Assembly (NCBI GenBank): GCA_902805665.1
Contig: CADCTB010000106.1
Coordinates: forward strand, 319 to 62,516
Direction: 5' to 3'
Length of the DNA stretch: 62,198 nucleotides
Origin: an uncultured Acidimicrobiales bacterium
GTDB taxonomy: Bacteria; Actinomycetota; Acidimicrobiia; Acidimicrobiales; AC-14
Part shown: positions 38,849 through 58,565 of the stretch, in pieces
Layout of the letters: every line of letters begins with the position of its first letter
Numbering within the stretch: position 1 is the first letter of the stretch
The notes under the pieces: model-generated
What the model was told of the DNA's origin: nothing
Seen by the model: the letters and a program-made list of their open reading frames with translations, nothing else
Database searches by the model: none
Made by a program: the position numbers and the translations under genes

Positions 38849-39214
38849 CTACAGGGCGACGGCGACGGCTTCGGCCACGAGGCCGGAATGGGTGAGGGAC
38901 ACGTGCCACGACGTGACGCCTCGCCGGGCCGCGAGGTCTGCAGCCCGGCCGGTGAGGGAGAGTGACGGCGCGCCGGAGGGGGCCTTGACCACCTCGACGT
39001 CGCGGAAGGCAAATGCTCCGAGGCCCACCCCCAGCGCCTTCATGACCGCCTCCTTGGCCGCGAAGCGGGCGGCCAGGCGCTCGGCCGGGTCGCGCTGGCG
39101 GCGGCCGTAGGCCTGCTCCGCGGGGGTGAACAACCGGTCGGCGATGCCGGGACGCTTCTGCAGCGCCTTCCGGAACCGCTCGACCTCCACGGTGTCGATC
39201 CCGATCCCGATCAC
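38849..39214 (-). CDS. acpS: Holo-[acyl-carrier-protein] synthase
   Basis: AcpS activates the fatty-acid acyl carrier protein with phosphopantetheine. It has 121 residues from GTG 39214 (MIGIGIDTVEVERFRKALQK), with the Mg-binding Asp in GIDTVEV and RFAAKEAVMKALGVGLG supplying Glu and Lys. WHVSLTHSGLVAEAV ends the protein. The GTG overlaps the stop of a 25-codon ORF (GTGA) that begins at the end of glmS. A longer start reading MCERTKSAGG is possible but lies inside that ORF. Confidence 0.95.
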   Translation of the reverse strand: MIGIGIDTVEVERFRKALQKRPGIADRLFTPAEQAYGRRQRDPAERLAARFAAKEAVMKALGVGLGAFAFRDVEVVKAPSGAPSLSLTGRAADLAARRGVTSWHVSLTHSGLVAEAVAVAL

Positions 39215-39284
39215 GCAGCCCCCAGCGCTCTTTGTCCGCTCACACACCGTGGCGGTACCCCAGCGGACAAAGACCGCCGGCGGA

Positions 39285-39288
<4 letters not shown>
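39211..39288 (-). CDS. 25-residue micro-ORF bridging glmS and acpS
   Basis: The ATG at 39288 overlaps the glmS TGA (ATGA), and the frame MIRRRSLSAGVPPRC, then VSGQRALGAA, ends in a TGA that overlaps the acpS GTG (GTGA). Both ends therefore share bases with real genes. The peptide is basic with no domain I recognise. The 12-bp inverted repeat at 39229-39273 lies inside it. This is the best single example of a bridging ORF here. Confidence 0.4.
39229..39273. repeat. 12-bp inverted repeat between glmS and acpS
   Basis: TCTTTGTCCGCT (39229-39240) and AGCGGACAAAGA (39262-39273) are perfect complements separated by 21 bases, within the 70-base gap between glmS and acpS. The RNA could fold into a stem with a large loop, or the arms could be an operator. 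Confidence 0.7.
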
Positions 39289-41126
<1,838 letters not shown>

Positions 41127-55606: not shown

Positions 55607-55972
55607 CTAGAACTCCAATCCAGCTTCACGGGCGGCGTCGGCGACTGCCGCGACGCGGCCGTGGTAGAGGTTGCCGCCCCGGTCGAAGACGACCTTGGTG
55701 ACCCCGGCGGCCTTGGCCCGCTCGGCCACCAGCGTGCCGACGGCCTTGGCCGCCTCCTTGTTGCCGGTGGGGCCCGAGCGCAGGTCGGCCTGCACCGTGC
55801 TGGCCGCGGCCAGGGTGCGGCCGGTGATGTCGTCGATCACCTGGGCGGTGATGTGCTTGTTCGACCGGAACACAGCCAGGCGCGGACGGTCGGCCGTACC
55901 CCGGACCAGCTTGCGGACCCGGTGGTGCCGGCGGGTACGGGCCACCTGCTTCTTCTTCGTGGAAAAACTCAC
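55607..55972 (-). CDS. rplR: 50S ribosomal protein uL18
   Basis: uL18 brings 5S rRNA to the large subunit. The 121 residues from GTG 55972: [40 protein letters not shown], then [19 protein letters not shown] and [20 protein letters not shown]. The GTG overlaps the stop of the second 16-codon ORF in the rplF-rplR gap (GTGA). Its stop is followed by a palindromic gap of 154 bases before rpsE. Confidence 0.97.
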
Positions 55973-56019
55973 GTGGCTGCCTTTCCGGCTCGACTGATGA
56001 GGCCTGGCAGGCGGCTCAC
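55969..56019 (-). CDS. 16-residue micro-ORF, second tandem copy, rplF-rplR gap
   Basis: GTG 56019 overlaps the stop of the first copy (GTGA). The frame [16 protein letters not shown] ends in a TGA overlapping the rplR GTG (GTGA). The sequence is a 47-bp duplicate of the upstream unit, so its last residues echo the rplF C-terminus. It may let ribosomes pass on from rplF to rplR. Confidence 0.35.
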
Positions 56020-56074
56020 TTCGCCGCCTTTCCGGCTCTACTGATGAGGCCTGGCAGGCGGCTCACTTCGCCGC
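55981..56074. repeat. Two tandem 47-bp copies around the rplF stop codon
   Basis: 55981-56027 and 56028-56074 are identical except for one base (G at 55992, T at 56039). The second covers the last codons of rplF (GKAAK and stop) and part of the spacer. The start of a third copy (CTTTCCGGC) follows at 56075. The unit length equals 51 minus a 4-base GTGA overlap, so each copy recreates a start-stop frame. Confidence 0.95.
56016..56066 (-). CDS. 16-residue micro-ORF, first tandem copy, rplF-rplR gap
   Basis: GTG 56066 overlaps the rplF TGA (GTGA). The frame [16 protein letters not shown] ends in TGA, which in turn overlaps the GTG of the second copy. The final GKAAK is the same as the rplF C-terminus because the DNA is duplicated. 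Neither copy has a Shine-Dalgarno site, so any translation would depend on termination-reinitiation. Confidence 0.35.
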
Positions 56075-57833: not shown

Positions 57834-58138
57834 CAGACGTCACCTCCGCACTTGCGGCAGATGCGGACCTTCGTGCCCTGGTCGTCGAAGCGGTAGCCGA
57901 CGCGGGTCGGGCCGCACGACGGGCAGATCAAGGCGACGTTGGACGCCGGCATAGGCATGTCCTTGTCGATGATCCCCGCTTGCATGGTGGCCCGGGCCGC
58001 CCGCTGGTGCTTCTTGGCCACGTTGACGCCCTCGACGATGACCTTGCCGTCCTTGGGGAAGACGCGCATGATCTCGCCCTCGTCGCCCCGGTCCTTGCCG
58101 GTGAGCACCCTCACCCGGTCGCCCTTCTTCAGCTTCAT
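57833..58138 (-). CDS. rplX: 50S ribosomal protein uL24
   Basis: uL24 initiates large-subunit assembly. The 101 residues from the ATG at 58138: [60 protein letters not shown], ending in a four-cysteine block ([20 protein letters not shown]), likely a zinc site. The start shares one base with the stop of the 19-codon ORF upstream. Confidence 0.96.
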
Positions 58139-58197
58139 CACAGACCTCCGGTCAAAACGGCGCTCGCTGAGCAAGCTCCGCTCGCGAAGCGAGACAT
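58138..58197 (-). CDS. 19-residue micro-ORF bridging rplN and rplX
   Basis: The ATG at 58197 shares one base with the rplN TGA (TGATG) and the frame [19 protein letters not shown] ends in a TGA that shares one base with the rplX ATG (TGATG). Both ends are fused. A GGAGGT site inside serves rplX. The DNA carries copy B of the REP-like element, read in another frame than copy A, so a conserved peptide is unlikely even if translation occurs. Confidence 0.3.
58163..58196 (-). repeat. REP-like element after the rplN stop (copy B)
   Basis: CTCGCTGAGCAAGCTCCGCT and the following GCGAAGCGAGACAT match copy A (55571-55606) at 22 of the first 25 bases and again end ACAT just before a stop codon. Nested palindromes CTCGC...GCGAG are visible. 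Confidence 0.6.
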
Positions 58198-58565
58198 CAC
58201 AACACCTCAGGTGCGAGAGAGATGATCCTCATGAACTTCTTGTCCCGCAGCTCGCGGCCCACCGGGCCGAAGATGCGGGTGCCCCGCGGCTGCTGGGCGT
58301 CGTTGATGAGCACGGCGGCGTTCTCGTCGAAGCGGATGTAGCTGCCGTCGGGACGGCGGTTCTCCTTCTTCGTGCGCACGACGACGCACTTCACCACCTC
58401 GCCCTTCTTCACCGCTGCGCCCGGGATGGCGTCCTTGACCGTGCCGACGATGATGTCGCCGATCGAGGCGTAGCGCCGCTTGGAACCGCCCAGCACCTTG
58501 ATGCAGAGCACCTCCTTGGCGCCGGAGTTGTCGGCCACCCGTAGACGAGTTTCCTGTTGGATCAC
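58197..58565 (-). CDS. rplN: 50S ribosomal protein uL14
   Basis: uL14 forms an intersubunit bridge and a binding site for the silencing factor RsfS. The 122 residues from GTG 58565: [60 protein letters not shown], then [21 protein letters not shown]. It is 67 bases after rpsQ. Confidence 0.97.

Follow-up and report, generated by a model that had tools for sequence, protein, structure and literature searches.

A short bridging frame through a dispersed hairpin element may keep glmS and acpS translationally coupled in an uncultured Acidimicrobiales bacterium

Termination-reinitiation at ATGA or GTGA couples the translation of adjacent genes through a -4 overlap (PMC6728339, PMC10666635). In tested pairs the coupling was nearly abolished at gaps of about 20 nt (PMC10666635); coupling at longer spacing has been seen in other studies, according to a review (PMC12548453). 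A stable structure after the stop codon insulates against reinitiation (PMC7518266). Ribosome-delivering upstream ORFs (uORFs) are short frames devoid of a protein role, whose stop overlaps a gene start, while mycobacterial interspersed repetitive units (MIRU) are repeats inserted at start codons, containing ORFs that are coupled by a -4 overlap (PMC12548453).

In the window (i.e., the whole 62,198-nt stretch of DNA that was analysed), glmS (39285..41126, minus strand; Pfam SIS and GATase_6), ending in GAATGA, is separated by 70 nt (39215-39284) from acpS, which encodes holo-ACP synthase (38849..39214, minus strand; Pfam ACPS). The gap is spanned by a 25-codon micro-ORF (39211..39288, minus strand, ATG to TGA, product MIRRRSLSAGVPPRCVSGQRALGAA), recognised from the sequence, the ORF list and the chain analysis. 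Its start lies in an ATGA over the glmS stop (39285..39288, minus strand) and its stop in a GTGA over the acpS start (39211..39214, minus strand), the latter placed by sequence comparison with relatives. The gap length, the frame and both four-base overlaps are exactly those of the original prediction. The acpS start GTGATCGG at 39214 is conserved in the window genome (G000), its congeners G001 and G002, and G004, G014 and G022, and is represented by GTGATCGGT in G003; for this reason, a start at 39247, within the hairpin described below, was rejected. A weak Shine-Dalgarno-like GGGGG run (39219..39223, minus strand) precedes the acpS GTG, partly within the hairpin base, and may, judging from sequence and fold, constitute a weak initiation site of acpS itself. 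As in known termination-reinitiation pairs, the overlap is of the -4 type, here at both ends and twice in series; unlike in those pairs, the genes lie 70 nt apart and are joined by an intermediate micro-ORF. Similarly, the frame resembles ribosome-delivering uORFs, except that here the short ORF would itself be fed from the upstream gene.

Most of the micro-ORF lies within a sense-strand hairpin (39222..39280, minus strand) with a predicted folding energy of -42 kcal/mol (z -6.6), compared with -30.6 kcal/mol for the opposite strand. Its 12-bp arms (left, 39229..39240, and right, 39262..39273; TCTTTGTCCGCT/AGCGGACAAAGA) bear out the inverted repeat previously noticed inside the frame. The repeat is far beyond chance because it is one member of a family of repeats: further places in the same genome match the hairpin alone in a DNA search, and pattern searches together with a covariance model delimit the 41-bp core (39231..39271) of a dispersed palindromic element. 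Exact and near-exact patterns recovered six copies in the window genome, five in G002, two in G001 and 12 in G142, which belongs to another family. Over 84,980 species genomes, the 41-bp pattern matched 24 stretches, all in five Acidimicrobiia/Actinomycetota metagenome-assembled genomes (MAGs), and the covariance model finds more, several relatives reaching about 10-19 copies per genome. The element is about 50 bp long, with the consensus GTTCTTTGTCSGNT-N5-ACC-N5-GGT-N5-ANCSGACAAAGAAC; its arms covary (31 double-change cells vs. 13.3 in shuffles), which would also be expected of a palindromic protein site.

The position of the copies, scored with a simple codon-usage gene caller, is strongly biased. 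Among 63 intergenic copies, 34 are convergent, 27 tandem and 2 divergent, compared with 10, 68 and 21 of the other junctions at the same loci (Fisher P 1.5e-9 for convergent and 0.001 for divergent placement). Most lie 3-30 nt from the nearest upstream stop; eleven copies are placed within called ORFs, some of them possibly caller errors. As the element mostly follows stops directly and is enriched between convergent genes, it is a 3'-end element. It has the GC-rich hairpin of an intrinsic terminator but no U-tract after the stem in the window sequence, and for that reason its terminator-like nature is something that we infer. Ribosome termination structures (PMC7518266) and bidirectional terminators likewise place a stable hairpin directly past a stop codon, whereas the hairpin described here belongs to a conserved dispersed sequence family and would be translated through. 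Like REP sequences, the copies are dispersed extragenic palindromes; however, a search of six genomes, five of which carry the element, yielded no Y1_Tnp (RAYT) gene, and a REP/RAYT origin was rejected. Identity with a known RNA family was rejected as well, since Rfam yielded no match at gathering score and only sub-threshold miRNA hits, as was derivation of the gap from a phage or plasmid, for which searches returned no match. The dispersed 3'-end hairpin family is without a match in Rfam or the literature searched.

MIRU constitute the nearest precedent; the window case would function in a similar way, yet it is no MIRU, because sequence, host and usual placement differ. Both are interspersed repeats, present in several copies per genome, that can occupy a start/stop overlap in an operon, where a short ORF through the repeat couples the next gene with -4 spacing. 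Such a DTGA-overlapping ORF runs through the element at glmS-acpS and also in G142 (L197 1118-1207, G142:C67), where a 29-codon GTGA...GTGATG frame bridges a DUF58 gene and a gene for a VWA-like membrane protein, although most element copies do not bridge genes. MIRU insert mainly at DTGA starts in operons, in contrast to the largely convergent, 3'-end placement of the element, a palindrome whose reading frame changes from site to site. Among the 84,980 genomes, none of the matches to the element pattern is mycobacterial, a comparison made by pattern and not by alignment to the MIRU consensus. Two further combinations of element and relay are possible, in G004 between what we take to be mazG and eno and in G002 between genes that are presumably dop-like and DUF3866-like.

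Comparison with relatives provides the main evidence on the frame. The glmS-acpS survey covered 56 TGA-ending junctions at the level of the order, drawn from MAG data, with start codons assigned by homology. RTGA is present at every examined glmS ending in VTVE* with TGA, and in 42 of the 56 junctions the acpS frame begins at this RTGA itself. As the commonest state, this direct overlap is probably ancestral. Twelve of the 14 non-direct junctions are bridged, by a single or a double relay frame: all ten in phase 1 have a single relay whose stop overlaps the in-frame acpS start, and two of the four in phase 0 (G130 and G156) have two serial relays, while L095 and L143 are without a bridge. Within the window genus (the window genome and two congeners), the gaps of 16, 70 and 160 nt are unrelated in sequence, differ by multiples of three between congeners, and are bridged in 3/3 cases by relays of 7, 25 and 55 codons. 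In the same family, G003 has a relay of 14 codons and G004 is direct; in another family, G014 has a double relay. G022 is direct as well (these junctions were read by hand). In G012, a 14-nt tandem duplication at the acpS start, with a period of 3n-1, created the relay. A separate case is the gap in L078 (G081:C38), where in-frame 54-nt tandem copies of the glmS tail form a 60-codon relay ending on the acpS GTG.

The idea that the frame hands ribosomes from glmS to acpS withstood the alignment of the gap in relatives, since phase, overlaps and bridges persist, both overlaps being retained in the two congeners (16 and 160 nt) despite unrelated sequence, and the relay in G003. The support is nonetheless partial, because conserved residues largely dictate the overlaps, the relay peptide is unconserved, and the hairpin, a dispersed 3'-end element, is not peculiar to this junction. 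The congeners lack the element at glmS-acpS. In two genomes of another family it occurs just upstream of acpS (L171/L187 64-120 and L195 1113-1169), behind a variant GlmS-like gene with a CTGA stop and without a relay.

Bridging frames are also found at other operon joints. Between rplF and rplR (window 55969-56066, minus strand), each of two tandem 47-nt units forms a 16-codon frame that begins and ends at a GTGA, the pair being a double relay, and 47 nt (3x16-1) is the period required for serial relays. At this junction in relatives, nine D-TGA cases are direct and 4/4 non-direct cases, including the tandem double relay of the window, are bridged, with shuffle probabilities of 0.005, 0.17, 0.41 and 1.0; among the congeners, the overlap is direct in G001, and a single relay of about 49 codons is present in G002. 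The acpS-nnr junction, intended as a negative control, offered no more than two non-direct D-TGA cases, each of them with a bridge, too few to be informative; in G364 a 74-nt tandem duplication (period 3n-1) created a relay at the nnr start. Other non-direct D-TGA junctions of the window, among the co-directional pairs checked, are without a bridge. A 20-codon GTGA...GTGATG frame also bridges the 55-nt gap between rplN and rplX (58138-58200, minus strand); it may be incidental, rplX also having a GGAGG site.

Our preferred reading, with a probability of roughly 0.55 as judged from sequence comparison, is that the micro-ORF serves as a relay that keeps glmS and acpS translationally coupled after an insertion at their ancestral overlap. 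We infer this history, together with translation of the frame and coupling, from the observed geometry, the conservation of phase and overlaps, and the element family. Ancestrally, acpS would have started on the RTGA of the glmS stop. Extra DNA would then have come to separate the acpS start from the glmS stop in the window genus, carrying here the dispersed 3'-end hairpin element, and the frame from the old RTGA would have remained open to end on the acpS GTG. As distance and stable structure reduce reinitiation, a 70-nt gap with a hairpin of -42 kcal/mol should weaken or abolish coupling to acpS, and the relay frame would restore it. After terminating on glmS, ribosomes would start again at ATGA, melt the hairpin while translating the 25 codons, and reinitiate at GTGA, the relay peptide itself not being the product. 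The same passage of ribosomes would prevent the hairpin from forming behind RNA polymerase. A tentative extension, for which we would claim little confidence, is that the lineage-restricted, near-symmetric hairpins are bidirectional and terminator-like, are tolerated in coupled operons only with a relay, and act between glmS and acpS as a terminator gated by translation.

The most serious competing explanation, which we regard as possible but doubtful, is coincidence, with acpS initiating alone, helped by the GGGGG run. Both overlaps are nearly free, because GlmS ends in Glu plus TGA (tail ...TVTVE*, GAR + TGA giving RTGA) and AcpS starts with V-I (xTG-ATH giving NTGA); therefore, only the phase of the gap and the open frame are informative. 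The phase fits in one of three cases, and in stop-poor, GC-rich DNA the frame stays open with a probability of 0.64 (dinucleotide shuffles). For the window junction alone, the chance is about 0.2, the overlaps themselves are weak evidence, and, once the phase is taken as given, a strict null that fixes the acpS start codon assigns P 0.75 to the relay of the window. The relatives argue against coincidence: bridges join 12/14 non-direct junctions vs. 2.5 expected (P 3e-10, from dinucleotide-shuffled gaps conditioned on the existence of the acpS start, in a loose test that counts related genomes together), rplF-rplR is likewise bridged, and the gaps of congeners differ by multiples of three. With the acpS start codon fixed, the product P is 0.003, rising to 0.011 when each lineage contributes a single case; the excess of bridges is real but moderate, as much of the geometry is automatic.

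It is less probable still that the hairpin alone matters, as a site of termination or processing behind glmS, setting the glmS:acpS transcript ratio, with the micro-ORF being incidental. The location of most copies shortly past stops, their convergent enrichment and the very stable fold agree with such a role, but the stem lacks a following U-tract, the congeners' junctions lack the element, and the window copy lacks an in-frame TAG typical of its sisters. When other copies from the same genome are placed in the window frame in either orientation, TAG is inserted in 8/10 cases, whereas the window copy introduces none; it differs from its sisters at that very spot, the sense-strand stem being kept by G-U pairs. 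A functional small protein is very improbable and was rejected: its sole support is the open frame, while the relay peptide is unconserved between congeners and between G047 and G093, relay length varies from 7 to 55 codons, and the one homologous pair, compared by eye, shows mostly non-synonymous differences.

The relay reading would carry the MIRU idea past mycobacteria, to a repeat of unrelated sequence. Single and double relays that occur naturally provide material for asking whether a ribosome reinitiates several times serially. The collected junctions indicate that operon joints apparently tolerate insertions and duplications while the chain of stop/start overlaps survives, which constitutes a testable rule for the evolution of coupled operons.
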